Shown piece by piece: positions 6,360 through 58,295 of a stretch of DNA of 64,000 nt. Under the pieces are notes generated by a model, which saw only the letters and a program-made list of their open reading frames with translations, made no database searches and was not told where the DNA came from. Source of the stretch: Planctomycetaceae bacterium. Its GTDB lineage: Bacteria; Planctomycetota; Phycisphaerae; SM23-33. Made by a program: the position numbers and the translations under genes. The DNA is taken from positions 62,001 through 126,000 of the forward strand of contig JBDKTA010000039.1 in NCBI GenBank assembly GCA_039680605.1. Direction: 5' to 3'. How positions within the stretch are numbered: position 1 is the stretch's first letter; each line of letters begins with the position of its first letter.

Positions 6360-6466
6360 GTAGCACGGGCATCTTGCCCATGCATCCCCGATCCTTCAGC
6401 GATCGGGGACACGCACAACGGAGTTGTGCGTGGCACCCGCGCCTCGCCATCGCGCGACCGTGCTAC
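6360..6466. repeat. Composite REP element with GTAG feet
   Basis: Begins GTAGCACGGGC and ends with CCGTGCTAC, so the outer ends are inverted. Inside, at 6405-6438, is the REP half GGGGACACGCACAACGGAGT found in the transposase-linked units. GTAG at the foot of a palindrome is the recognition tetranucleotide known for RAYT/REP systems. A second composite of the same make-up is at 51486-51624. It fills the gap between the two beta-helix genes. Confidence 0.7.
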
Positions 6467-22252: not shown

Positions 22253-22393
22253 GGGTGCCACGCACAACTCCGTTGTGCGTGCCAATGTGTCTGGTCCTGA
22301 GAAGATCGTTGAAGGGAAACAGAAGCGACCTTCAGGATTGCGATGTCCCGAGGTTCCCGGGGACACGCACAACGGAGTTGTGCGTGGCACCCC
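22253..22393. repeat. Dispersed two-REP (BIME-like) unit, 141 bp
   Basis: Starts with GGGTGCCACGCACAACTCCG (REP1, stem CACGCACAAC with GTTGTGCGTG) and ends with the inverted GGGGACACGCACAACGGAGT...GGCACCC (REP2). About 75 nt lie between the two REPs. It matches the layout of the four 148-bp units next to the transposase at 57.3 kb and lies between the kinase gene and hicB. Confidence 0.85.
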
Positions 22394-31256: not shown

Positions 31257-31432
31257 ATCCGAGACGACAAAATCGAGATCCGAAACAAACAGACAAAGAA
31301 ACAAGGAACAAATCAAGAAGAAAGAACCGTCAAGGCATGGGTACCTGTACCGCAGTCAGTTCCTCCTTTGTGGTTCGCTCCTTGTTTCGAATTTCGTATT
31401 TGTCGTTTCGGATTTGTTCTCTATTTGCCTCT
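31257..31432. repeat. Pair of inverted low-complexity arms (AAACAAGGAACAAAT family)
   Basis: A purine-rich stretch at about 31257-31325 (CGAGACGACAAAATCGAG..., ACAAAGAAACAAGGAAC) faces a pyrimidine/T-rich stretch at about 31369-31432 (TTTGTGGTTCGCTCCTTGTT, TTGTCGTTTCGGATTTGTTC) that is roughly its reverse complement. The right arm reaches into the 3' end of the frameshifted HEAT gene. Same architecture as 20931-21095 and 54566-54763, different sequence. Confidence 0.6.
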
Positions 31433-32046
31433 GTGCTCGTAGTGATAACGCGTGATGACGGGCCCGGAAAGTCTCCAGAAGGCTTTGTAGTATTTGATGA
31501 GCCGCTCGCGCTGAATGGCCGGGTCGGAACTGGTCTGGCCGGGCTCGATCCCGCAAATGCGGGCCAGCGACTTGTGTACCTGTCGCACGACGACCGGCTC
31601 GGGGTCTTTCAGCGCGGTGATCAGGTCCGGAACGTGATCGCAATCCCAGGCCTCGCCGATGGCCTTGGCGGCGTCGGCGCGGGCCTCGGGGCTGGAGTCT
31701 TTTGCCAGCATGACCGCGGCCGGCCCCATTTCCTTGCCATTATGGACGAACCGCGTACGGCAGGGCGGTTGTCGCTGGCTCGCTCACGAAGCACCTGCAG
31801 GGCCAAGGGCGTCCGGACATTGGCCAGCGCTTTGACGGCGCGGCAAGAATCGAGCGTGTCGGCCGATTCGGCGACCTTCGCCAGACCCTCTACGTCATTG
31901 CGATCGGCCATGCGGGCGATTTCATCGTGACCGCCGCCCAGGCCAGTTCGAGAGATCCAGACCCCGCCGGCGACCAAAAGGACCAGTGCGATCCAGATCC
32001 AGGGTCTGCCAAACGCTCCGTGCATGCTCCAGTTCAATTCCAGCAT
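31421..32046 (-). pseudogene. Membrane-anchored HEAT-repeat protein, frameshifted copy
   Basis: The first part (start 32046 or 32025) encodes an N-terminal membrane helix (WIWIALVLLVAGGVWIS) and HEAT-like helices to about LRERASDNRPAVR. The rest (AVMLAKDSSPEARADAAKAI to RYHYEHRGK) is in another frame. The join lies near 31744-31760. The intact paralogue at 33556-34203 reads straight through the same order, so a single base gained or lost here explains the break. It is either a decaying gene or a sequencing error. It starts 1 bp after the prepilin gene stop at 32048. Confidence 0.7.
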
Positions 32047-32047
32047 C

Positions 32048-33475
32048 TTAAGGCAGCCAATACCGGGCTTCGGTGCCCGGGATCGTGGGATCGATCTCGG
32101 TAGGATTCATCATCTTGACGGTTCCGCTGCGCATCAGCACGTTGACGTTGCCGTTGTGGCGGGCGAAGCTGGGATTCGTGTCGGCCCAGTCTTCATCGTT
32201 GTTCTGGACGATCAGATGCTCGTAGTCAATCGCCATAATCTTGTCAGCGCCCAGCCCGGCCACGTCCACAAGGTGGGGATTGATGCCGTAGCTGATGGTC
32301 AGGCTGTTGGTGTCGCCGGGCGTTCCTTCGCCGCCCGTGCTGCCGGGGGTGCCGATCGACACCTTGGGATATCCTTCGCGATCCGGGGAGTTCCAGTTGG
32401 CGGTGGCAAACGCGGGGTTGGATGGGTCGCCGTAACCGTTGGGGATGACGACCACGTCGTCAGGCGTCAGATCGCCCTTCTTGACGAGATTGGGCTGGCC
32501 ATACATCATCTCCGTGAAGATGCGCACGCCGATGGACGTGGTGCCGTCATCCTTGTGCGTGATCCACAAGCCCACGTTCTGACACGGCGACTCGCCCTGG
32601 GGGCCGAAGTACTTGTAACCGGCGCGTCCGCCCCACCACCACGTCTGGCCGGTGCTCTGGTCGACGCCGGTGTCATAGTAGCCGCCGGTATTCTTGAAGC
32701 TTTGCCACACTCCGGCGGGGTCCGAGTCCGGAGGGATGACGCCCGATTCGGCATAGATCCAGTTGCAGTAGGGATTGCTGCCAGGATCATAGTTGAACTT
32801 GAAGCACCATTGCGGGGCGTTAGCGCCATAGCCCGAAGCGCCGAAAGTATCCAGCAGCATGGTCAGCGGATTTCCATAACGGTCCTTGATGATGGCGCCG
32901 TTGTATTCGCCGGCAGGAACCGTCAGCAACGACTCCCGCTCTGGATCATTGATCTTTCGGGCAAAGTAGCTTGTACCGTCAAGGGGGATGTAGACGTCCC
33001 GAAACGCCGTCTTCCACAGCACAACCGGGTCGGTCAGCCACGGCGCCCAGCCCGGAATGCCGTTGGTGATCCGTTGTCGATAGTCCCGCAAGAAGGTTCG
33101 CATCGCCTCTTCGGCCAGCGACGTGCCGCCCGACGGCGGCGTACCGCCGGAGGTGACCACGACGTTAGCGGCGCTCTCGGGGCACAGCAGGATGCTCTTG
33201 GCGTTGTCGGCGTCTTTGAGAACGACCTTGTACCAGTCCTTGGGATCGGCCAGCGTTGCGGCCACGCTCCTGTCCATGTCACGCAATTGCAGCGAGGGGC
33301 ACTGGCCGATGCGCATGAGATTGCTGCGGCAGACCGTCATGCGGGTGCGAGACAAGACTCCGCTCATGGTGGGAAACAGCAAAGTCACCAGAATGGCAAG
33401 AACCGCGACAACGACAAGCAACTCGGTGAGAGTCATTCCTCGATAGCGCAACTCAGCGGAGTTCATTTTCACCAT
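32048..33475 (-). CDS. Prepilin-type protein with degenerate H-X9-DG end (copy B)
   Basis: A 475-residue pseudopilin-like protein. The type IV prepilin peptidase site is YRG|MTLTELLVVVAVLAILV, where the glycine precedes a hydrophobic helix with a conserved glutamate. The C-terminal region has ARHNGNVNVLMRSG, the H-X9-DG motif of planctomycete prepilin-like proteins with DG changed to SG. ATG 33475 has AGGAG about eight bases upstream, and a TATAAT box lies near 33523-33528 on this strand. Paralogous to the 34222-35640 gene; each is followed by a HEAT gene, so the pair was duplicated in tandem. Confidence 0.88.
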   Translation of the reverse strand: MVKMNSAELRYRGMTLTELLVVVAVLAILVTLLFPTMSGVLSRTRMTVCRSNLMRIGQCPSLQLRDMDRSVAATLADPKDWYKVVLKDADNAKSILLCPESAANVVVTSGGTPPSGGTSLAEEAMRTFLRDYRQRITNGIPGWAPWLTDPVVLWKTAFRDVYIPLDGTSYFARKINDPERESLLTVPAGEYNGAIIKDRYGNPLTMLLDTFGASGYGANAPQWCFKFNYDPGSNPYCNWIYAESGVIPPDSDPAGVWQSFKNTGGYYDTGVDQSTGQTWWWGGRAGYKYFGPQGESPCQNVGLWITHKDDGTTSIGVRIFTEMMYGQPNLVKKGDLTPDDVVVIPNGYGDPSNPAFATANWNSPDREGYPKVSIGTPGSTGGEGTPGDTNSLTISYGINPHLVDVAGLGADKIMAIDYEHLIVQNNDEDWADTNPSFARHNGNVNVLMRSGTVKMMNPTEIDPTIPGTEARYWLP

Positions 33476-33555
33476 GGCGAATGCTCTCCTGTCCGTCTCA
33501 CGCCGGCCTGTCTTGACGATCTATTATATGAAATAGATCCAACGGGGCCCCTATT

Positions 33556-34203
33556 CTATTGCTTCTTGTCATCCCGGCCGAGGTAGTCGCCGTGGTAGCG
33601 TTTGAGGATGTCTCCGTAGACTTTCCAGCACCGGTCGTAGAATTTGACGGCCCTGGCACGGCGGGTGGCGAGGTCGGTGGCGGATTCGTATCCGGGTTCC
33701 ATCCCGCAGATGCGGGCGGCCGAGCGCTGGGCCTGGCGGAAGACCTCTTCATTGGAGTCTTTTTCCATGGCCGTGATCAGCTCGGGCATGCGTTTGAAGT
33801 CCCAGCTCTCGCCGATCGCCCGCGCCGCGACGGCGCGGACATCGGCTGATTCGTCATTGAGAAGCTTGTCGGTCAGCAGGGTACCATACTTGCGAGGGGC
33901 GGCCCGGGCCACCGCCAGGACTGCGTGCTGGCGGATGACCTGGCGCGGGTCGGCGGTAGCGGAGACGATGGGGGCGACGGCTTCGTGTTTGCCCATCGCG
34001 CTCAGGGCCTTGATGGCCCGGCAGGCATCGGTTTCGTTGCCGGCGGCGATAACGCGTGCCAGTCCGCTGATGTCCTGCGCGCGGCGCATCTGCTCGATGT
34101 CGTCGCTCTCGCGTGACATGGAGAAAGCCGCGGCTACTGCCGCAATCACCAGCGCACTCACGATCCAGAACCACGGTCGTTTCAGCACTGCCGCATCCTT
34201 CAT
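33556..34203 (-). CDS. Membrane-anchored HEAT-repeat protein (intact copy A)
   Basis: A 215-residue protein with one N-terminal transmembrane helix (FWIVSALVIAAVAAAFSM, residues about 12-29) and a soluble part of HEAT-like helical repeats: DACRAIKALSAMGKHEAVAP, VIRQHAVLAVARAAPRKYG, VRAVAARAIGESWDF. It follows the prepilin gene by 18 bp. The stable pairing of prepilin and HEAT protein in both copies suggests the HEAT part binds the pseudopilin or its assembly machinery at the inner membrane; this is inference. Confidence 0.8.
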   Translation of the reverse strand: MKDAAVLKRPWFWIVSALVIAAVAAAFSMSRESDDIEQMRRAQDISGLARVIAAGNETDACRAIKALSAMGKHEAVAPIVSATADPRQVIRQHAVLAVARAAPRKYGTLLTDKLLNDESADVRAVAARAIGESWDFKRMPELITAMEKDSNEEVFRQAQRSAARICGMEPGYESATDLATRRARAVKFYDRCWKVYGDILKRYHGDYLGRDDKKQ

Positions 34204-34221
34204 GCAAAACCGCGCCCCTGG

Positions 34222-35640
34222 TCAGGGACGCCAATACTGCGCTTCGTACAGGTTGGGGTCAATCTCCGTCGGCCACTTCGTCGCGACCGATCCGTCGCGA
34301 TAGAGGACGTTGACTTTGCCGCTGTGGCGGGCAAAGGCCGGCTCGGGGGCGGTCCAATCCTCGTCGGTCGGCCGCACCACCAGGTGGTCATAGTCGATGG
34401 CCAGGATCTTCTGCTGGCCCAGCCCCGCCTGGTCGGTGATGGAGGGATTGATGCCGTAGCTGACCTTGAAGGACGTGGTGGATCCCGGGGGGGTGGTTCC
34501 GCCGGTGGCAGAGCCGATCGTCACCGTCGGAAGCGACTCGATCACCGCCGCGTTTGGCGCCCAGGCGTCGTTGTTGGGGTGCCCGAATTTTTCGACCACC
34601 AGCACGTCGTCGACGCCAGGGGTGGTGGTGTTGGAATGGCGTACGATATTGGGGATCCCATGGTTGCGGTCGGAGGTGCTCCACATGCGGCGGATGCGCA
34701 TGACGGTCGTGCCATCCTGTTCGTGGGTCACCCAGAAGGCTACGTCTTGTGCGGGATCGTCGCTGAAGCTCTTATACGTCGCCGATCCGCCCCAGAACGC
34801 GTAGATGCCCCAATAGGTGTCCATGTTCTGCTTGAGGCGGTATCCCGAGAACGTCGCGCGGACCATCGCCTCGTTCGAATCCGGAGGCACGGCGCCGGTG
34901 CCGGCATAGATCCAGTACGTGTAAGAATCGGCGCCGGGCGAATAGAGGAAGTTGTAGCAGTACTCCGGGCTCCAGGCCCAGTTGTTGGGAAGATCGTGCA
35001 GGAGCCTCTGGGGCGTGCCCTGAAAAGTGGGCGTGTTACCGGCCGGGGCGAACTGCGCCACGCTGGGATGGAGGTAGTCGTTGTTCCCGCTGGCGTCTTT
35101 GTGGTCCCGCATCACCATGTATTCCGTGTGCGATATCTTGCGGGCGAAGTAGCTCGTCCCGTCCAGCGGGAGATACAGGTAATTTGACGAGCACCCGAAG
35201 GCCGTAATCGCATCTTTGCCGTTGAAATTGCACGACATCCGCAGGCGATAGTCGGCCTTGAACGCCTGGAGCTTCTCCTCGGCCAGCGCGGGCCCTTCAT
35301 GGCCGCCGGAGGTGGTTTCCGTCAGCACCGTTGCGCCTTCGGCGCATTGCAGGATGCTCTTGGCGTCATCGCTGTCTTTCAGGACCGCCTTGTACCAGTC
35401 GCCGGCCTCGGCAAAGGCGGGCCGGGCGGATTTGTCCATGTCGCGAGACTGCAGCGAAACGCTTTGCCCAATTCTTTTGAGATTGTTCTGACACATCAGC
35501 GCCCGCGTTTTGACCAGGAGGTTGCCTGTCGCGGGTACCAGAAGAGTGACCAGGATCGCCAGGATGGCGACCACAACCAGCAGTTCCGTCAGCGTCATCC
35601 CCCGAATTCCACAAGAGGTCCGTGTTTGTGTGCTAAGCAT
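34222..35640 (-). CDS. Prepilin-type protein with H-X9-DG motif (copy A)
   Basis: A 472-residue pseudopilin-like protein with prepilin cleavage site IRG|MTLTELLVVVAILAILV and C-terminal ARHSGKVNVLYRDGSV, where H is followed by nine residues and DG (the planctomycete H-X9-DG prepilin motif). The central region (LPLDGTSYFARKISH, NPSITDQAGLGQQKILAIDY) is shared with copy B. The start is preceded by AGGAGAG. A TATAAT box at 35690-35695 suggests its own promoter, 93 bp from the TPR/protease gene upstream on the same strand. Confidence 0.9.
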   Translation of the reverse strand: MLSTQTRTSCGIRGMTLTELLVVVAILAILVTLLVPATGNLLVKTRALMCQNNLKRIGQSVSLQSRDMDKSARPAFAEAGDWYKAVLKDSDDAKSILQCAEGATVLTETTSGGHEGPALAEEKLQAFKADYRLRMSCNFNGKDAITAFGCSSNYLYLPLDGTSYFARKISHTEYMVMRDHKDASGNNDYLHPSVAQFAPAGNTPTFQGTPQRLLHDLPNNWAWSPEYCYNFLYSPGADSYTYWIYAGTGAVPPDSNEAMVRATFSGYRLKQNMDTYWGIYAFWGGSATYKSFSDDPAQDVAFWVTHEQDGTTVMRIRRMWSTSDRNHGIPNIVRHSNTTTPGVDDVLVVEKFGHPNNDAWAPNAAVIESLPTVTIGSATGGTTPPGSTTSFKVSYGINPSITDQAGLGQQKILAIDYDHLVVRPTDEDWTAPEPAFARHSGKVNVLYRDGSVATKWPTEIDPNLYEAQYWRP

Positions 35641-35689
35641 GGTGAATGCTCTCCTTTATTTCACACCGGGCATTCCCTTTGCACGTTTT

Positions 35690-35718
35690 ATTATATTGGA
35701 TATCTTCCCTATCGGAAA
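35690..35718 (-). promoter_or_regulatory. Possible promoter of the prepilin/HEAT block
   Basis: On the minus strand an exact TATAAT (35690-35695) is preceded, 17 bp upstream, by the weak TTTCCG (35713-35718). The start codon follows about 50 bases later with AGGAGAG in between. The other prepilin copy also has TATAAT at a similar place (33523-33528). The -35 element is poor, so regulation by an activator is possible. Confidence 0.4.
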
Positions 35719-35733
35719 TAGGTAATCCAATGA

Positions 35734-38700
35734 TTAATCAAGAGGCGTCTGTCGTCCCAAAGCGCCGGCCAACGCACGTTTCCAGCAGACCATCGGCCAG
35801 GACTTGCCGATAAGTTTGGCTTGCGCCTTGGCTTTGGCAGTCAGAGCTTTGCGCGATCTGGCGTCGGCGGCTTTGCCTTCGATCAGGTCGGCGAACAACA
35901 GCAGCATCTTGGATAGGTGCGTCGCCAAGGGCGGCGTCCAGTGCTCGGCCGAGTAGTCCTCCAGCAACGCGCGGTGTGTGCGCACGGCGGCCAGGAACTC
36001 GTCGATGCGCCCCAGGCGCAGGGTGGTTTCGCAGAGCACGATGGCCTGAAACCGCATCGTCTGGTCGCCGCGCAGATGCTGCAGCACGTCGCGACTGGTG
36101 GCGTAGAGCTCTTCAAGGTCTTCTTTGACGCCTTTGGCCTTGCGGAGCGAACTGGAATAGTTGGCGATGGCCCACATCTCAATGCCGTCATGCTCGCGCC
36201 AGTCGCACATCCACCGGCGGATCTCGGCGGCCGCGGGAGGTTTGCTGCATGAGAGCATGTACCCGATCTTCTGCCATACCGGCGTCTGGTGGCGGCAGGA
36301 GTCTTTGTGGTCTCGCCAGTACTTCATTGCGGCAGGGCGCGAATGCGTGTCGTGCAGGACTTCGAGTACCTGGGCCTTGCAGGCGCCGTTGTCCCAGCCG
36401 CCGCGGTCGAGGCCTTCCAGCAGCATCAACAGCTTTCGTGCCGACGCCGACGGAGCCAGACCCAGCGCCTGCCTCAGCCGCAGCGCCAGCGGGGTAGGCA
36501 CCTTCACCAAGGCCACAGCCGCGGTGAGCTTGACCATCGCCGCCCGCCGCACACGTCGGTTGGAGAGGACCCTGTCGAACAGCGCCTGGGCGGCCATCGG
36601 CGCGCGCCGATGTTTCTCGAAGGCCTCCCAGGCGGTCTGCTCTGGCCAGACCTCGTCCTCGCCCGGGGCCTGCCAGACCCGGCAGGCGGTATCCAGGGCC
36701 AGGTCCCACTGCCCCGCCTCGGCAAAGCACTGCACCTTGCGGGCCAGGAGGTACGTGGATTGCGGATAGAACCGCTCAATGGCGGTGATGACGCCCTGGG
36801 CGCGGTCCAACGACCCGCGCTTCAGGAGCTGGTCGAAACGCCAGATGTGAACCGCCTCGTGGCGCGGGAAATCCTGCAGAAGCTGGTCCCACTGCGAGTC
36901 GAGTTCGTCCGACGTCACACCTGCGGCCTCCAGCAGCAACAGGCGCCGCGCGGCCAGGCGCGGGTCTTCCATGATGACGGGGTGGACGCTGTGGAGAATT
37001 TCGCGGGCGCGTGTCCAGCTCTGCTGGTTCTCCATCCAGTCCATCAACTGTTCCCAGGCCCACTTGTGGGTGGGCCACTGGGCGACAACCTGGGCCATTT
37101 CGTCGATGGCCTGCTGGGGTTTCTCCTGCACCCAGGTGATCCATGCCAGTCGCGCGGCGATGGCCGCGGGCGGTCCATCGAGTTGGCGCTGCTCGGCGAT
37201 GAGTTGGCGGGCTTGGTCGCAGCGGCGCGTCTGTGCCAGCAGCGTCGCAAGGCGGTCGGCGGCATCGAACAGCGCGGCGTTGTATTCGAGGGCCTTGTTC
37301 AGGGCGTTTTCGGCCTCGACCAGGTCGTTGTTGACCTCGCAGCGCAGCAGCGCGTCGCCCAGAAGGTACCAGAAGTACGCGCCGTTTTCCATCAGGGCGG
37401 TGGCCTGGCGTGCCAGGTCGAGGGCCTGGTGGTGGTGCTGGAGTTCGAGGGCGAAGTCGATCGCGCGGCGGCGCAGCTCAACGCTCAGGGGCGTTTTGGC
37501 CAAGCCGTCGATGCACGTCTGCAGGGCCTGGTCGTACTGCTGGGCGTTCCACTGCATGTCCGCCAGGTAGCCCCAGGCATCCTGGGCGTCGGGGCGGAGT
37601 CGCACGCTCTGGCGGAGGATGTCGAAGGCCTCGTCCCGCTGCCCGCGGCGCTCCAGGACGCTGGCCAGGTTCGCCCGGGCCGCCAGGTTCACCGGCTGGC
37701 GGCGGATGATCTCGCGCAGGACGGCGATCTCCTTGTCTTCCTGCAGCAGGCTGCGATAGGCGTCGGCCAGCGAGAAGCGCAGGTCGAAGTGGTTGGGGAA
37801 GCGGCGGATGGCTTCTTCGAGCACCTCGACGGCCCGCGCCGCATCGCTGCGCCCGCGACCGTAGGTCAACCACAGGTCCACTTGCGCCTCGATGACTTCC
37901 GGATCGGAGGCGTCGCGGCTGAGCCATTCCTCCACGCACTGCTGGGCCTGCTGGCAACCGAATTGTTCGGCCAGGCGGAACGCCAGAATGCGCGCATGGT
38001 GCAGCGGACCGATGGTCCGCAGAATCTGCTGGCACAACCGCGCTCGGATGCGCTCGACGACGTCGGGCGCCAGGTGGTCGACGCACATCCAGATTCGGTC
38101 GTAGCAGTACCCGTTGCCCGGGTCGGTCGTGACGGCCTGGAGCAGCATCTCGGCGGCCGGGGCATGCAGCCCCCGCGCCTGCGCGGCCTGGGCGGTGAGA
38201 ATCATGGTCGTCGCGTCGTGAGCGGCCAGCCCCTGCACCCGCCGCACGATGGCGTCAACCTCGTCGAACAGCGCCGCCGCGGCAGCGCCTTTGCGCTGGG
38301 AGGCCTCGTTGAGCAGGCTGTAGCCCAGTTCGCGCCAGGCCCAGGCGTCCAGGGGGTTGCGCTGGACGCGCCGGCGCAGCACCTGGGTGTACGCCTCGTC
38401 CTGAAAATCCGCCCGGAGCTGTTCGAGATAGATCTGCTCGAACATCTCGTGGTTCTGTCGCTGCCCGAGCCATTGGGCCGCCAACTCCACGCACGCCTTG
38501 CGCCCGTGTGCCACGGCGTACTGGCGCAGGTACGCCGTGCGCGCCTGGGCGTTCTCGCTCTCCTCGGTCATCCACTGCCCGCTCAGTTCCAGGGCCTGCT
38601 CCCATTGGCCGCTGGCCTCGTGCAGATACACCGCCGCCGAAAGGTACAGCCCGCGGTGTCCCGCGCGGGAGGCACATTCCAAAGCCGCCCACGCCCGGTC

Positions 38701-40917
38701 CCAGTCGCCCATGCGCACCCAGAACTCGGCGGCGAAGGAATGAACCTCGCCGCCGGCGTCGCTGTGCTGCTGCGCTGCGAGCATGGCCGCGATCGCCTCG
38801 TCGGCCCGACCATAGTCCTCCAGCGCCATCACCCACGTGCGCCAGGCCCATCCGCCCCGGACCAGCCCCCCGAGGCGCTGGCAGCGGCGGTGCAGCCACT
38901 CCAGGGCCTCGCTTTCGCGACCCGCCAGGCGCAGGGCGTCGGCGTAGCTGCGGGCGTAATGGTCGTGCTCGTATTCCAGGCACGCCGCCAGGCGGAAGGG
39001 CAGCAGGCTTTGGTCGGCCTGGTTCTGCCAGATGCAGATGTCGCCCAGCACGTGATACGCCCCCGCCGCTGCCGGTTCGTAGCGAACCGCCTTGAGCAGC
39101 AGCCGCCGGGCGCGGGCGAACCCTTCGCTGGTGACGCCGAGATAGTCGGCATAGCGGGTGATGATGGCCGCCGGGACATAGCGCCAGAACTGGCGGTCGC
39201 CGACGGCGGCGACGCGTCCGCGGTCGACGATCTGTCCCAACGTCGCCAGCACCCGCGCCGTGTCGCGGGTGCCCTCCAGGCTGCCCAGAAACTCCTCCTG
39301 CACCGCCGCGCTGTGCGGATAGCGTTCAAGCAGACGCTGCTGGATCTCGATGGCGGCAAAGCGCTCGCCGATGCGGTCGAGGTACATCGCGTGGAGGCGC
39401 TGGACCAGCGGCTCGTCGTCTCTCTGGGCCAATAGCGACTCGACGAGCCCGGCGGCCGACCGCGCCCCGCGCGTCTCCAGGAGTTTGGTGAACTCGATCA
39501 TTCCCTCCATGGCGCGGCATTGGTCGGGGTCGATCACCTCCAGCCGCGCCGCCTGGTCCTGCGGGACCATCGCCACCCCCTGCGGACCAAAGGGCGCCTC
39601 TTCACTATGCACGTGCTCCAGCAGCACGCGCGACCATCCGCTCGAGGACGGGTCGTGGATGATCAGCACGCCGGCGGCTTCGTCCAGCCCCACCACCGCC
39701 GTAGCGTGGGCCGATCCCATCCGCCGCGTCGAGAGCAGAAACGGGATGCCCGCCCGGATCAGCGCCGAGGCCCGCTCGGGCGTCACGGCGAACGCCCGCG
39801 TGGCCCAGCCGTTGGCTTTAAGCCAGTCCACCGCCCGCCAGATGGCCGTTCCACCGTAGGTCAGCGCCTCGGCCAGGGCGTCCTGGTCTACCTGGCGTGC
39901 GAAGACCCCTGCCGCCGCGGCAATGCTGGTGGGAAGGCACGTGTTGTGTTTCTGCAGCAGCGGGCGATAGGGCAGCAGGATCAACCGCCCGTCGGGATTC
40001 TTCTGCAGATTCTCGTGCGCGAGGCGATAGAACGGGTGGCGGGCCTGCTGGGAATACCGACTCAGACGCCCGCGGTCGCCCGTGGTCATCGCCACGTCGG
40101 CTCGCATGTAAGCCAGTTGGGCCTTGGTCTGGCGATCAGCCAGCGGGGTCAGGCGCGTTTCGATGTCTTCCAGTATCGCCCAGGCGTCGGCCGCCAGGCT
40201 CTCACGCGCCGAACCGCTCTCGCGCTCGGCCAGGTCTGCCAGGTACGCCACCGTCACCTGGGCGGTTTCGTACGATTGCCCGCCCCGGGCGGCTTCGAGC
40301 AGCCGCTCATGCACCAGTTCCTCCAGCCGCCCCAGACGTGTCAGGATCAAACCCAGCACCTGGGCGGTGGCGGGCATGGCCGGACGGCTCTGCCAGGACC
40401 GGTCGGCGAAATCCAGCGCCTCGTGCCAGCGGTCCTGGTGGAACAGCACCCAGGCGCGGCAGCAGAGCACCCAGGCGTCGATGGGGGCTGTCCGCTCCGA
40501 GGCCGCCAGCAATTCGTGCGCGCGGTCGAAGTCTCGCAGCAGGCTCCACGAGACCGCCATGTTCGCCAGCCAACTGGCTTCGAGATCCGCATCGGCGCCT
40601 TCAAGGCGCGGATGGTCCTCGAACTGCTGCAGATCGGCGAAGAAATTGTGCCCGCCCCTGGTGTCCGAACCGACGTAATACCGCACCAGCGGATGTGTCG
40701 CGTCGTGCGAGCGGGCCAACCGCAACAACCACCGCCGCAGGCGCTGACCGCCCAGGCGCCCCCCCAGCTTGGCCGCGTGTACAAGCTGCTCGACCGTCAT
40801 ACGGTCCGTCACGTCAGACCGCGACCACCATGAACGCGTCAACTCATAAGCGTCCAGGTACCGCACCTGGTCGTACAGTCGCAGAACCTGCGGCAGATCT
40901 ACGTCCGGCCCCGGCAT
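35734..40917 (-). CDS. Giant TPR protein with an internal C39-like cysteine protease domain
   Basis: A 1727-residue protein. Residues 1-300 and 450-1727 are helical tetratricopeptide-like repeats (for example ALNKALEYNAALFDAADRLA, AFDILRQSVRLRPDAQDAWG). Residues about 315-440 form a C39/papain-like peptidase: cysteine C327 in HNTCLPTSIAA, histidine H404 in MGSAHATAVVGLD and aspartate D422 in IIHDPSSSGW. C39 peptidases normally sit at the N-terminus of bacteriocin ABC exporters and cut double-glycine leaders; here there is no transporter, no membrane helix and no signal peptide. Start 40917 was chosen over 40980. It lies 100 bp after the retropepsin-like gene on the same strand. Substrate unknown. 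Confidence 0.85.
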   Translation of the reverse strand: MPGPDVDLPQVLRLYDQVRYLDAYELTRSWWSRSDVTDRMTVEQLVHAAKLGGRLGGQRLRRWLLRLARSHDATHPLVRYYVGSDTRGGHNFFADLQQFEDHPRLEGADADLEASWLANMAVSWSLLRDFDRAHELLAASERTAPIDAWVLCCRAWVLFHQDRWHEALDFADRSWQSRPAMPATAQVLGLILTRLGRLEELVHERLLEAARGGQSYETAQVTVAYLADLAERESGSARESLAADAWAILEDIETRLTPLADRQTKAQLAYMRADVAMTTGDRGRLSRYSQQARHPFYRLAHENLQKNPDGRLILLPYRPLLQKHNTCLPTSIAAAAGVFARQVDQDALAEALTYGGTAIWRAVDWLKANGWATRAFAVTPERASALIRAGIPFLLSTRRMGSAHATAVVGLDEAAGVLIIHDPSSSGWSRVLLEHVHSEEAPFGPQGVAMVPQDQAARLEVIDPDQCRAMEGMIEFTKLLETRGARSAAGLVESLLAQRDDEPLVQRLHAMYLDRIGERFAAIEIQQRLLERYPHSAAVQEEFLGSLEGTRDTARVLATLGQIVDRGRVAAVGDRQFWRYVPAAIITRYADYLGVTSEGFARARRLLLKAVRYEPAAAGAYHVLGDICIWQNQADQSLLPFRLAACLEYEHDHYARSYADALRLAGRESEALEWLHRRCQRLGGLVRGGWAWRTWVMALEDYGRADEAIAAMLAAQQHSDAGGEVHSFAAEFWVRMGDWDRAWAALECASRAGHRGLYLSAAVYLHEASGQWEQALELSGQWMTEESENAQARTAYLRQYAVAHGRKACVELAAQWLGQRQNHEMFEQIYLEQLRADFQDEAYTQVLRRRVQRNPLDAWAWRELGYSLLNEASQRKGAAAAALFDEVDAIVRRVQGLAAHDATTMILTAQAAQARGLHAPAAEMLLQAVTTDPGNGYCYDRIWMCVDHLAPDVVERIRARLCQQILRTIGPLHHARILAFRLAEQFGCQQAQQCVEEWLSRDASDPEVIEAQVDLWLTYGRGRSDAARAVEVLEEAIRRFPNHFDLRFSLADAYRSLLQEDKEIAVLREIIRRQPVNLAARANLASVLERRGQRDEAFDILRQSVRLRPDAQDAWGYLADMQWNAQQYDQALQTCIDGLAKTPLSVELRRRAIDFALELQHHHQALDLARQATALMENGAYFWYLLGDALLRCEVNNDLVEAENALNKALEYNAALFDAADRLATLLAQTRRCDQARQLIAEQRQLDGPPAAIAARLAWITWVQEKPQQAIDEMAQVVAQWPTHKWAWEQLMDWMENQQSWTRAREILHSVHPVIMEDPRLAARRLLLLEAAGVTSDELDSQWDQLLQDFPRHEAVHIWRFDQLLKRGSLDRAQGVITAIERFYPQSTYLLARKVQCFAEAGQWDLALDTACRVWQAPGEDEVWPEQTAWEAFEKHRRAPMAAQALFDRVLSNRRVRRAAMVKLTAAVALVKVPTPLALRLRQALGLAPSASARKLLMLLEGLDRGGWDNGACKAQVLEVLHDTHSRPAAMKYWRDHKDSCRHQTPVWQKIGYMLSCSKPPAAAEIRRWMCDWREHDGIEMWAIANYSSSLRKAKGVKEDLEELYATSRDVLQHLRGDQTMRFQAIVLCETTLRLGRIDEFLAAVRTHRALLEDYSAEHWTPPLATHLSKMLLLFADLIEGKAADARSRKALTAKAKAQAKLIGKSWPMVCWKRALAGALGRQTPLD

Positions 40918-41017
40918 ACGATGCGCCTTGATTATGAACAGACAGCCCGATCGTCTCGCCGCGCGCGGCGGCAGGTGCAAATCATAATCGCCGCCTTGCG
41001 CCGGTCAAGGGCGCGCG

Positions 41018-41602
41018 TCACCATGTCGGCGCGGCGCTGAGGCGGCGGGCGCTGAAGGTCAGGGCATAACCCTCCAGGACCCGCGCCCGCCCGAGAATGT
41101 TGTACTGCGGCATCGCCGCCAGTGGACGCGCCGCCGGCGCCTCGTCGGCGACGTTCCGCGGAGGCACGATCACCGGCACCATGAACGGACGGTCGTCGAG
41201 ATACACCTGCACCCACCGCCGCAGACCGATCATCGGCGCCCCGCCGGCGTCGCGAACGACCGCCGCCACGTCGCCGGGATGCATCGCCCGCTCGATCCCC
41301 AGGTCGTCGGCAGACGACGCCGTCAGCGTGCTCACGTCGGCGCCGGTGTCGACCAGCACCAGCACCTTGCGCGTGACGGAGGTCTGGATATTCTGCATGT
41401 CCAGCAGGACCACCGGCATGGCGTTGCGGCTGGCGGCCGCCCAGATCATCCCATAGCGGTGCGGGTCGCGCGCCAGCAGGCCCGCCAGTTCGCCCGCCGG
41501 CGGCAGCGGCGGCGAGGGCGCTACCGGCGCCAGGTATTCGTGCGCCCATCGGCGGCGCCGACCGCGGCGGCGCGGAGCGAGTTTGACGGTCTTGCCCTTC
41601 AT
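41018..41602 (-). CDS. Retropepsin-like aspartic protease (clan AA)
   Basis: A 194-residue protein with the aspartic protease motif D85-T86-G87-A88-D89 in VLVLVDTGADVSTLTASSAD and the C-terminal NILGRARVLEGYALTFSAR, which matches the hydrophobic-glycine block of retropepsin-like enzymes. Such single-domain proteases act as dimers. The N-terminus is strongly basic (RRRGRRRRW), without a clear signal peptide. Its start overlaps the stop of the response regulator by ATGA, so it is the direct partner of the signalling pair. A processing role for the regulator, the TPR protein or another target is inferred from position only. Confidence 0.78.
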   Translation of the reverse strand: MKGKTVKLAPRRRGRRRRWAHEYLAPVAPSPPLPPAGELAGLLARDPHRYGMIWAAASRNAMPVVLLDMQNIQTSVTRKVLVLVDTGADVSTLTASSADDLGIERAMHPGDVAAVVRDAGGAPMIGLRRWVQVYLDDRPFMVPVIVPPRNVADEAPAARPLAAMPQYNILGRARVLEGYALTFSARRLSAAPTW

Positions 41603-42315
41603 TTGGCAGCCGCCTCCAGCACGTCGAGAATGACCGGCATCGCCCGGCGAAAGGCGGCGCTGCGGAGAATGCGGCGGGTCAACTGGGCGTTATCCGCCGC
41701 GGCGAAGACCACCCGCTCGCCTAGGCGCACGCCGCCGGTGAGCTTCTGCCGCCGCGCCTGTGCCGCCTCGACGACGGCCACGCTCTTGCCCGCGAAGCGC
41801 CTGGCCAGTTGGGCATAGTGTCGAGCCAGCCAGGTCTGGTTGGGATCCAGCTCGCGGCGGCGTTTTTCTTCGACAAGTCGGGCGCACTGGGCGACGAGCT
41901 GGTCAGCGGTGTTGCCCCCGGGAAGGGTCTTGGGCAGGTAGTAGGCCCCCGCGCGGGAGACCTCGATGGCGTCATGCACGCTGGGGTAAGCGGTGAAGAC
42001 GAAGATCGGCGTGTCCGGGTCGACCAGGCCGTGGCGGCGGATCGAACGGATTTCTGCCAGCGTCCGCAGCACCTGCAGCGCGGCGTCGGGCTGGTCGCGC
42101 CCGGACCGCCCGGCGTCCAGGGGCATGCGCATGTCGAGCACGACTACGTCGTAGCGCCGCTGCAGCAGGCGGCGGACGGCCTGGTCGACGTTGGACGCTC
42201 CGGCCGGTGCGAACCCCGCCAGGCGGAACAACGTGGCCAGGCTCCGCCGCAGCGCCGGGTCATCGTCGGCGATCAGCACGCGGGGCGGCGACAGGCGGCG
42301 GGGGCGGACCTTCAT
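41599..42315 (-). CDS. Response regulator with non-DNA-binding output domain
   Basis: A 238-residue protein. Residues 12-135 form a receiver domain: acidic D17-D19, phosphoacceptor D61 in VVVLDMRMP, T108 in VFTAYPS and K129 in YYLPKTL. An insertion (DAGRSGRDQPD) follows the phosphorylation site. The output part (residues 150-238, with LARHYAQLARRFAGKSVAVV, and RRAMPVILDVLE) has no helix-turn-helix and recalls DUF5678. I recall small DUF5678 proteins encoded next to retropepsin-like proteases, as happens here. Both ends overlap neighbouring genes by ATGA. Confidence 0.82.
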   Translation of the reverse strand: MKVRPRRLSPPRVLIADDDPALRRSLATLFRLAGFAPAGASNVDQAVRRLLQRRYDVVVLDMRMPLDAGRSGRDQPDAALQVLRTLAEIRSIRRHGLVDPDTPIFVFTAYPSVHDAIEVSRAGAYYLPKTLPGGNTADQLVAQCARLVEEKRRRELDPNQTWLARHYAQLARRFAGKSVAVVEAAQARRQKLTGGVRLGERVVFAAADNAQLTRRILRSAAFRRAMPVILDVLEAAAK

Positions 42316-43043
42316 TGCGTCCTCCCGTTGCGCTGGGGCAGGACGATCCGGAACCGCGCCCCGCATCCGGGGCGCCCCACTTCCTGTGCGGTGCCTCCAT
42401 GGACTGCCGCCACGCGCCGCACGATGCTCAGCCCCAGCCCGAAGTGCCCGCAATCCTGCGAGTGGTACGGGCGGAAGACTTTCCGCTTCATCGCCGCCGG
42501 AACGCCCGGACCATTGTCGCAGACTTCGATGACCACATGCGAGCCGGCGCCCCGCCGCGACATGCGCACGCCGATGCGACCGCCGCGCCGCGGCACGAAC
42601 CGACGCGCGTTCTCGAACAGCTCCACCACCGCCCGCTCGATCAGGTGCGGGTCGCCCCAGATCACCAACCGCCGCGGCAACTGCCACAAGAACCGCCGCC
42701 GCGCGTACTGGCGCCGCAACCGCGCCGTCAGATCGGCCAGATCAAATCGCACGAATTGCGGTTTCTGCCACGCCCGACCGTACCACATGGCGCTGGTCGC
42801 GGCGCCTTTGAGCATCTCGATCGACCGCGACAACTGCCCCAGCGCGTCCTTGCAGGAGGAGGCGGCTTGGCGCTGCAGGATTCCCATCGCCGCCTCGACG
42901 CCGGCGATGCGCCCCAGGAGGATGTGGCCGGCTTCGCGGGAGAACTCCGCCAGCGCGCACTCGATGCGCCCATTGAATGGAGGCTCGCAGAAACCGTCGA
43001 TGCGCCCGCCGGACCGGCTGGGTCGCCCATCTTTGCACGCCAT
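42312..43043 (-). CDS. Sensor histidine kinase, soluble
   Basis: A 243-residue kinase with a clear HATPase domain: N-box ELFENARRFV (N145), G1 CDNGPGVPAA, F-box-like KVFRPYHSQ and G2 GHFGLGLSIVRRVAAVHGG. The first 80 residues form a helical dimerisation region with H40 (SREAGHILLGRIAGVEAA) as the likely phosphorylated histidine, although the usual HE/D motif is absent. No sensor or membrane segment is visible, so it may sense a cytoplasmic partner. Start 43043 is chosen; 43088 is also in frame. First gene of the overlapping kinase-regulator-protease run. Confidence 0.82.
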   Translation of the reverse strand: MACKDGRPSRSGGRIDGFCEPPFNGRIECALAEFSREAGHILLGRIAGVEAAMGILQRQAASSCKDALGQLSRSIEMLKGAATSAMWYGRAWQKPQFVRFDLADLTARLRRQYARRRFLWQLPRRLVIWGDPHLIERAVVELFENARRFVPRRGGRIGVRMSRRGAGSHVVIEVCDNGPGVPAAMKRKVFRPYHSQDCGHFGLGLSIVRRVAAVHGGTAQEVGRPGCGARFRIVLPQRNGRTQ

Positions 43044-51509: not shown

Positions 51510-51624
51510 GGAGCATGGGCGCGACGGGTGCCACACACAACTCCGTTGTGCGTGTCCCCGACCGCAAAGGCGGAGAGCATGGGCGAGACGCCCATGCTAC
51601 TCACGGGCAGGATGCCCGTGCTAC
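51486..51624. repeat. Composite REP element with GTAG feet
   Basis: Three palindromes lie back to back. GTAGCACGGGC-N5-GCCC occurs at the left, the REP half GGGTGCCACACACAACTCCG at 51526-51559, and two GTAG-footed stems at the right (reverse strand GTAGCACGGGCATCCTGCCC and GTAGCATGGGCGTCTCGCCC). GTAG-footed stems are the classical RAYT substrate. A relative is at 6360-6466. The element fills the gap between the aminotransferase and the kinase. Confidence 0.75.
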
Positions 51625-56956: not shown

Positions 56957-57104
56957 GGGTGCCACGCACAACTCCGTTGTGCGTGCCCATGTGCGCTGTA
57001 CGAGAGAGAGCCGTTGAATGGGAAAGGGATGGCCCTGGCGTTTGAGGGCCTCTCTTCGAAACGTACGGTCGGGGACACGCACAGCGGAGCTGTGCGTGGC
57101 ACCC
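56957..57104. repeat. 148-bp two-REP unit 1 of the transposase-linked array
   Basis: REP1 (GGGTGCCACGCACAACTCCG, 10-bp stem CACGCACAAC/GTTGTGCGTG, TCC loop) lies at the left. A conserved inner part of about 83 nt (TTGAAT, GGCCCTG, TTGAGGG, TCTCTTCGAAACGTACGGTC) follows, then the inverted REP2 (GGGGACACGCACAGCGGAGC...GGCACCC, GGA loop). Exactly 148 bp, followed by a 25-bp linker to the next unit. Confidence 0.92.
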
Positions 57105-57129
57105 CTGCTGATGCGCGATACCCCCGTCC

Positions 57130-57277
57130 GGGTGCCACGCACAACTCCGTTGTGCGTGCCCATGTGCGCCATGCTGAAGTAACCGTTAAATGGGAAAGGA
57201 ACAGCCCTGAGGTTTGAGGGTCTCTCTTCGAAACGTGCGGTTCAGGGACACGCACAGCGGAGCTGTGCGTGGCACCC
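57130..57277. repeat. 148-bp two-REP unit 2 of the transposase-linked array
   Basis: Same organisation and same 148-bp length as unit 1, beginning 173 bp after it. The inner part differs at several bases (GGAAAGGAACAGCCCTGAGG) but keeps TTTGAGGGTCTCTCTTCGAA. It ends 50 bp before the transposase start. Confidence 0.92.
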
Positions 57278-57327
57278 GGCGGAGGGGGAACTTGTGTGGG
57301 ATGTTCTGATGTGATAAGGTGCCGGCC

Positions 57328-57906
57328 ATGCAGATACGTGGGGAAAAACATCGAAAACTGTGCCAGCGATGGGATGTGCCGTATGGGGTGCATTATCTGA
57401 CGTTCTCATGTTATCGGCGGCAGCCGTTCTTCGGCAGCGAGAGAACGTGTCGGTGGTTCTTGGAGTGTCTGGATCAGGCGCGGGCGCGGCAGGGATTTCA
57501 TCTGTGGGCGTGGGTCATCATGCCTGAGCATGTCCACGCCCTGATTTCTATCCCAAATGAGGCACAGATCAGCGCCATTCTCAGGTCGATCAAGTATCCC
57601 TTGGCGCGGCGGGCGATTTTGTGGGCCAAAGAAAACCGCCCGGACCGGATGGGTTCGATGGAAGTGATCGGACCGGACGGGATCGTCTCGTACCGGTTCT
57701 GGCAGCGCGGCGGGGGGTACGACCGGAACATGCGATCGACTCGCGATGTGCATGAGAAGATACGGTATATCCACAACAATCCGGTGCGGCGGGAGTTGGT
57801 CCGGCGGCCGGAGGATTGGCCCTGGTCAAGCTGGCGCGCCAATCAAACGAGAGAAGACATACCTCTGCGAATCGACCGCGAGACGATTCCAATCCTTGTT
57901 GAATAG
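57328..57906 (+). CDS. REP-associated tyrosine transposase (RAYT, Y1_Tnp family)
   Basis: A 192-residue single-strand-specific transposase. The HUH motif is H68-V69-H70 in VIMPEHVHALISIP, and the catalytic tyrosine is most likely Y147 in KIRYIHNNPVRRELV. The N-terminus (VPYGVHYLTFSCYRRQPFF) and the end of the domain (WPWSSWRAN) are typical of RAYTs, which cut and move REP hairpins rather than themselves. ATG 57328 is chosen; GTG 57319 is in frame. It is flanked on both sides by units of the same REP family, with a half unit starting 11 bp after its stop. This is strong evidence that these repeats are its substrate. No frameshift is seen. Confidence 0.93.
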   Translation: MQIRGEKHRKLCQRWDVPYGVHYLTFSCYRRQPFFGSERTCRWFLECLDQARARQGFHLWAWVIMPEHVHALISIPNEAQISAILRSIKYPLARRAILWAKENRPDRMGSMEVIGPDGIVSYRFWQRGGGYDRNMRSTRDVHEKIRYIHNNPVRRELVRRPEDWPWSSWRANQTREDIPLRIDRETIPILVE

Positions 57907-57916
57907 CCGAGCGTCA

Positions 57917-57949
57917 GGGACACGCACAGCGGAGCTGTGTGTGGCACCC
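57917..57949. repeat. Half unit (REP2 only) next to the transposase gene
   Basis: GGGACACGCACAGCGGAGCT...GGCACCC, the REP2 of a unit whose left 115 bp are missing. It is followed by the usual 25-bp linker and the next full unit, so it holds its place in the 173-bp period. Confidence 0.9.
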
Positions 57950-57974
57950 TGCTGGTGCGCGATACCCCCGATCC

Positions 57975-58122
57975 GGGTGCCACGCACAACTCCGTTGTGC
58001 GTGCCCATGTGCGCTGTGCGCGAGAAGTTGTTGAATGGAAGAGGCGCGGCCCTGATCGGTTGAGGGTCTTTCGTCGAAACGTGCGGTCGGAGACACGCAC
58101 AGCGGAGCTGTGCGTGGCACCC
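57975..58122. repeat. 148-bp two-REP unit 3 of the transposase-linked array
   Basis: Full unit with REP1, a conserved inner part (AGTTGTTGAATGGAAGAGGC, TTGAGGGTCTTTCGTCGAAA) and REP2. It starts 25 bp after the half unit. Confidence 0.92.
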
Positions 58123-58147
58123 CTGCGGTGCGTGATGCCCCCGGTCC

Positions 58148-58295
58148 GGGTGCCACGCACAACTCCGTTGTGCGTGCCCATGTGCGCTGTGCGCGAGAAG
58201 TTGTTGAATGGAAAAGACGCGGCCCTGATCGGTCGAGGGTCTTTCGTCGAAACATACGGTCGGGGACACGCACAGCGGAGCTGTGCGTGGCACCC
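58148..58295. repeat. 148-bp two-REP unit 4 of the transposase-linked array
   Basis: Full unit starting exactly 173 bp after unit 3 and nearly identical to it in the inner part (AGTTGTTGAATGGAAAAGAC). It ends 29 bp before the small basic peptide gene stop. Confidence 0.92.

Follow-up and report, generated by a model that had tools for sequence, protein, structure and literature searches.

Eight genes on one strand of a Planctomycetota genome raise the question of whether they form a single system. They lie in the window, the whole 64 kb stretch of DNA analysed here (G000:C39:62001-126000, within a 5.23 Mb genome), and encode a histidine-kinase-like protein, a response regulator, a retropepsin-like aspartic protease, a giant C39/TPR protein, and two pairs of a prepilin and a HEAT-repeat protein (Table 1). 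The preliminary description presented them as one candidate system in which signalling controls proteolysis of a pseudopilin or surface assembly. The best reading, and in our judgement a fairly probable one, is a proteolysis module gated by a two-component system and flanked by two accidental neighbours.

Table 1. Features of the minus-strand run and the promoter-like sites within it
Feature	Position	Strand	Remarks
Sensor-less histidine-kinase-like protein	42312..43043	(-)	243 aa from ATG 43043; 258 aa from TTG alternative 43088
Response regulator, non-DNA-binding output	41599..42315	(-)	PF00072 1e-14; receiver fold in model
DUF5678-like output domain of regulator	41608..41853	(-)	residues ~155-236; ~16-residue insertion
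Retropepsin-like aspartic protease (A2/clan AA)	41018..41602	(-)	DTGA active site, ILG motif
TTGACC-16-TATGAT, upstream of giant	40981..41008	(-)	best-scoring site of region, 10/12
Giant C39/TPR protein, 1727 aa	35734..40917	(-)	ATG 40917; C39 domain ~39649-39963; Peptidase_C39_2 1e-7, TPRs
TATAAT, 55 nt upstream of prepilin 1	35690..35695	(-)	consensus match
Prepilin 1, H-X9-DG type	34222..35640	(-)	N-terminal prepilin motif; TIGR04294 C-terminal motif
HEAT protein 1	33556..34203	(-)	N-terminal membrane anchor + HEAT repeats; PF13646 6.5e-11
TATAAT, 53 nt upstream of prepilin 2	33523..33528	(-)	consensus match
Prepilin 2	32048..33475	(-)	48% identical to prepilin 1
HEAT protein 2, frameshifted	31421..32046	(-)	frame broken near 31.7 kb into ORFs 31621-32046 and 31421-31729, which overlap

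Gene content and layout

The sequence contains all eight genes described earlier between 43043 and 31421, with the qualification that the second HEAT gene is frameshifted. The giant and the first of the two prepilin/HEAT pairs following it are intact, while HEAT protein 2 is broken and is either a pseudogene or the product of a sequencing or assembly error. The ATGA overlaps reported for the first three genes are seen at both junctions (kinase/regulator and regulator/retropepsin). The giant starts ~100 nt past the retropepsin, and prepilin 1 starts 93 nt past the giant. The domain identities also stand, namely HATPase_c (4e-20), receiver (1e-14), gag-asp protease (1e-4), Peptidase_C39_2 (1e-7), TPRs, the prepilin motif, and HEAT repeats.

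Kinase, regulator and retropepsin

The HATPase_c domain of the kinase (PF02518) is complete, and Pfam found no sensor domain and did not recognise HisKA. The protein has an H-box-like stretch, AGHILLGRIAGVEAAM, whose candidate histidine aligns with the kinase of genome G105, discussed below; it resembles the C-terminus of that kinase through the H region, the alignment lying wholly in a contiguous C-terminal part. In the regulator, Pfam sees nothing but the receiver and no DNA-binding domain. The regulator aligns over its full length with the two other proteins in which a receiver is joined to DUF5678 (G179 and G105, 31 and 24% identity), and the receiver residues D18, D61, T108, and K129 are invariant in this alignment. 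Its structural model (mean pLDDT 80.7) has a confident receiver and an output part made of a helix plus short strands and helices.

The protease carries the retropepsin catalytic motif LVDTGADVS, in which D85 and G87 are invariant in 15 aligned sequences. Its gag-asp protease match lies below the Pfam cut-off, and TIGR02281 (NCBIfam, clan AA) scores 17.2 bits, under the cut-off of 57.95. The fold confirms the assignment: the AlphaFold2 model (mean pLDDT 71) matches the HIV, SIV, and EIAV proteases (best E 1.1e-5, probability 1.00), and the family profile has matches to ApRick, a Rickettsia protease, and to Ddi1. No signal peptide was seen. As a single-domain member of its family, it would be expected to be active as a homodimer.

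Neither the regulator nor the retropepsin occurs in any of the 34 other family genomes, and the exact kinase-regulator-retropepsin trio is absent from these genomes, the phylum sample, and the GTDB scan. Query P0004 had no relative among all GTDB genome contigs. Judged by these searches, conservation appears to hold for the parts of the trio and for analogues, and not for the exact trio.

Recurrence of DUF5678 beside retropepsins

DUF5678 was first met in a neighbour survey, as a small protein upstream of small retropepsins in other Planctomycetota. A search with the Pfam DUF5678 model, which leaves the loci unselected for retropepsins, returned 26 loci in 17 Planctomycetota genomes. In 22 of the 26, the next gene on that strand encodes a retropepsin, or the retropepsin is fused to DUF5678, always in the same order and with domain gaps of at most 177 nt; some of these loci supplied seeds for the retropepsin HMM, and at the non-seed loci L173, L176, L178, L180, L183, L185, L186, L190, L191, L193, and L196 it scores 6e-5 to 5e-25. 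At L178 and L190 (G071), the two domains are fused in a single chain.

An HMM trained without the window regulator finds its C-terminus at 16.8 bits, a score that 0 of 2000 shuffles reach (best 11.5); the assignment at this score is a distant one, carried mainly by the N-terminal half of the domain. The window domain shares with DUF5678 (PF18929) the motif W(L)xxHxxEL..YxGExVAVxxGxVxAH and the position upstream of retropepsins, but differs in its insertion and in falling below the Pfam gathering threshold, at which PF18929 has no match in the regulator or elsewhere in its genome. The 16-residue insertion is probably what hides this copy from Pfam. No solved structure of DUF5678 was found.

Two DUF5678 proteins among these loci bear a receiver. 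In G179 (VGYV01000788.1), from a different genus than the window, the gene of the receiver-DUF5678 regulator overlaps a retropepsin gene downstream of it by 4 nt. In G105, from a third genus, overlapping genes for a kinase and a receiver-DUF5678 regulator are followed by a gene that is not a retropepsin. Searched against GTDB genome contigs, the G179 regulator retrieves its own sequence, followed mostly by plain receivers that align over residues 4-109; near these, the HMMs detect no DUF5678 or retropepsin.

Two further observations concern these genomes. The gene downstream of the G105 pair (L198:2985-4322, G105:C161) encodes a 235-aa protein without a Pfam match, whose GHIAVYW and NCHNCVTWAVD motifs, we presume, resemble those of a permuted papain-like peptidase; it is possibly another peptidase type under a like regulator. 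At L188 / L200 (G179:C392), a dUTPase-like ORF continues without a stop into DUF5678, with a retropepsin next at a 4-nt overlap, and this ORF is either a real fusion or the result of a missing stop.

Proposed mechanism of the trio

By analogy, the simplest account would be a regulator with an output domain that acts on a protease rather than on DNA. In this scheme, the kinase would most likely phosphorylate the regulator at D61, which would expose or dimerise the DUF5678 domain; this domain would then recruit or dimerise the co-translated retropepsin, and the protease so engaged would cut a single cytoplasmic protein or a small number of them. Because a retropepsin has to dimerise, a partner that recruits it or promotes its dimerisation could plausibly control it. 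We infer every biochemical step and all regulation from the domains, the overlaps, and the DUF5678-retropepsin recurrence, and we offer only tentatively the view of a phospho-signal-gated retropepsin in which DUF5678 would serve bacterial HIV-protease-like enzymes generally as an activator or adaptor domain. Of the earlier proposal that signalling controls proteolysis, what survives concerns one protease, since the DUF5678-like output is the usual partner of retropepsins; the link to the C39/TPR giant and the pseudopilins does not.

The DUF5678 domain could be an adaptor, an inhibitor, or a substrate of the retropepsin, and all three fit the present data. If it were a substrate or a built-in inhibitor, phosphorylation would expose or shield it, and either the regulator would be cut or the protease released. 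We consider this rather unlikely. The tight pairing and the single-chain fusions suit a substrate or propeptide with its protease as well as they suit an adaptor, but the N-termini joined to DUF5678 are of several different kinds (a receiver, helical stretches), and G105 keeps the domain although the downstream gene is not a retropepsin; both points favour an adaptor slightly.

It is improbable that the two-component genes adjoin the retropepsin and its partner by chance, with these two being ordinary housekeeping genes and the regulator acting via partners elsewhere. The DUF5678 partner does lack a receiver in most Planctomycetota loci; however, a receiver-DUF5678 protein lies beside a retropepsin in two genera that are distant from each other, and in each case the genes overlap by 4 nt.

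Comparison with known systems

RssB and CpdR combine a receiver with a non-DNA-binding output and pass a phospho-signal to ClpXP proteolysis. The window regulator has the same architecture, and RssB is among the Foldseek matches of its model, by way of the RssB receiver. To our knowledge, the output parts of RssB and CpdR are unrelated to DUF5678. These two proteins also feed ClpXP, whereas the protease of the window is a co-encoded retropepsin; in the phospho-gated scheme, the regulator would be an adaptor of RssB or CpdR type that serves the retropepsin instead of ClpXP.

The bacterial A2 peptidases characterised so far, which are few, involve additional protein factors (PMC11957791). RimB and RloA are, like the window protease, single-domain retropepsin-like aspartic proteases that work with partner proteins (PMC11957791, PMC12239564), but they pair with ATP-grasp (RimK/RloC) and transglutaminase-like proteins, and the Rlo enzymes are secreted. 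No DUF5678 partner was seen described in either paper. A link between a two-component system and a retropepsin has a precedent, since RloA2 is predicted to share an operon with the two-component system CreBC; moreover, VxrB controls rloABC in Vibrio (PMC12239564). The need of bacterial retropepsins for partners is known, though few partners are. DUF5678, a neighbour or fusion partner of retropepsins at most of the loci examined and here the output of a regulator, gives a testable handle on how retropepsins are switched.

C39/TPR giant

The giant belongs to a family of 1,600-1,800 residues, consisting of an N-terminal region, a C39_2 domain, and TPRs, with matches in 26 of 294 Planctomycetota genomes, its own included. 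The only full-length homologue within the family of the window genome is in G003, where it is flanked by unrelated genes and where the C39 Cys, His, and Asp are conserved. None of the 17 homologous loci (G003 and 16 further) adjoins the trio or the pilin pairs. Around those 16, neither the kinase nor the regulator has a close relative, and DUF5678, retropepsins, and prepilin/HEAT pairs are all absent; the sole HEAT match there is one unrelated 551-aa HEAT protein. On this evidence, the giant appears to be a stand-alone protein; our best guess is a TPR-guided cytoplasmic cysteine peptidase.

Identification as a C39 ABC transporter was considered and rejected. The giant shares the papain-like C39 group with bacteriocin-processing C39 ABC transporters. 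In contrast to them, it matches Peptidase_C39_2 and not PF03412, which has no match in the whole genome, has neither an ABC nor a membrane domain, and consists largely of TPRs.

Prepilin/HEAT pairs

Both prepilins score above the TIGR02532 cut-off. TIGR04294 is just above its cut-off in prepilin 1 only, and the C-terminus of prepilin 2 shows a similar motif. They share with H-X9-DG prepilins (TIGR04294) and GspG-like pseudopilins the prepilin leader, the hydrophobic helix, and the C-terminal H-X9-DG motif, but are longer here (337-540 aa) and regularly paired with a gene for a membrane-anchored HEAT protein. Prepilin relatives match in all 35 genomes, with 32 in the window's own genome, and a subset of them is paired with a short HEAT protein bearing an N-terminal hydrophobic anchor.

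Besides window pair 1, there are 14 other intact pairs in G000-G003, four genomes of the family, with the pilin first and gaps of -53 to 50 nt. Their flanks differ between loci and are common to orthologous loci, such as those in G001, G002, and G003, whose flanks look like rpmE and prfA. Pilin and HEAT distances are correlated (Mantel r 0.83, reached by 0 of 5000 permutations, a value partly due to duplication of pairs as units within genomes), which indicates that the two members of a pair are duplicated and diverge jointly. Outside the family, the best HEAT homologues are in G254, of the same class and another family (2.6e-39 and 2.4e-36, against 1e-25 at best for generic HEAT proteins), and they adjoin a prepilin in reversed order, clearly in L340 and probably in L341. 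The recurrence in G000-G003 and in G254 makes the prepilin/HEAT pair a unit in its own right. Most likely, the HEAT protein is a dedicated periplasmic chaperone or assembly partner of its own pilin, and the pair points to a possible dedicated partner for the prepilins, which are very numerous in Planctomycetota.

Elsewhere in the window's genome, L102:3245-4276 (G000:C25) holds two HEAT paralogues, one of them with a stop, and neither lies beside a prepilin; they are possibly a decaying pair.

One operon or three modules

The same gene order elsewhere, named beforehand as the deciding observation, is absent from the family genomes and from phylum samples of about 250-390 genomes, and no relative has the order regulator-protease-giant-pilin. 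The proposal of one joint system therefore fails: giant homologues stand alone, pilin/HEAT pairs stand alone, and relatives of the trio occur without either. The putative promoters, as consensus matches only, would likewise separate the trio, the giant, and the prepilin pairs. TATAAT occurs five times in the 64 kb on both strands, two of these being the sites before prepilins 1 and 2, and it also lies upstream of two other prepilins in the same genome.

A single operon whose signalling governs two proteases acting on a pseudopilin or surface assembly has the common strand and direction and the short gaps (about 100 nt between retropepsin and giant, 93 nt between giant and prepilin 1) in its favour, but is very improbable given an order found in no relative, 17 giant homologues located elsewhere, pilin/HEAT pairs that recur without the remaining genes, a promoter-like site of their own before the giant and the prepilins, and a retropepsin with no visible secretion signal. 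With no signal peptide seen, nothing suggests that the retropepsin would act on periplasmic pilin or HEAT proteins. Rather, the run is probably three unrelated modules that share a strand by chance, namely the trio (A), the giant (B), and the prepilin/HEAT pairs (C); the absent A-B-C link and the pilin/HEAT recurrence are read from the sequence itself.

As a candidate undescribed system, the eight-gene run gives way to two smaller recurrent modules that are apparently undescribed. A literature search with subscription papers outside its reach did not turn up a description of either DUF5678-retropepsin pairs or the pilin/HEAT pair, a weak sign of novelty for each, and met the name DUF5678 solely in an unrelated context.

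Other features of the window

A defence-system library searched against the locus gave nothing beyond receiver or HEAT cross-matches. Directly upstream of the kinase, the divergent gene 43094-44161 matches PF01120 (alpha-L-fucosidase domain, 2e-13). A 35-nt imperfect palindrome (GGGTGCCACGCACAACTCCGTTGTGCGTG...) is present in thirteen copies, at 56957-58295, 6404-6438, 22253-22392, and 51526-51560, with 173-nt repeated units. Among these copies sits the ORF 57319-57906, a putative REP-associated tyrosine transposase.
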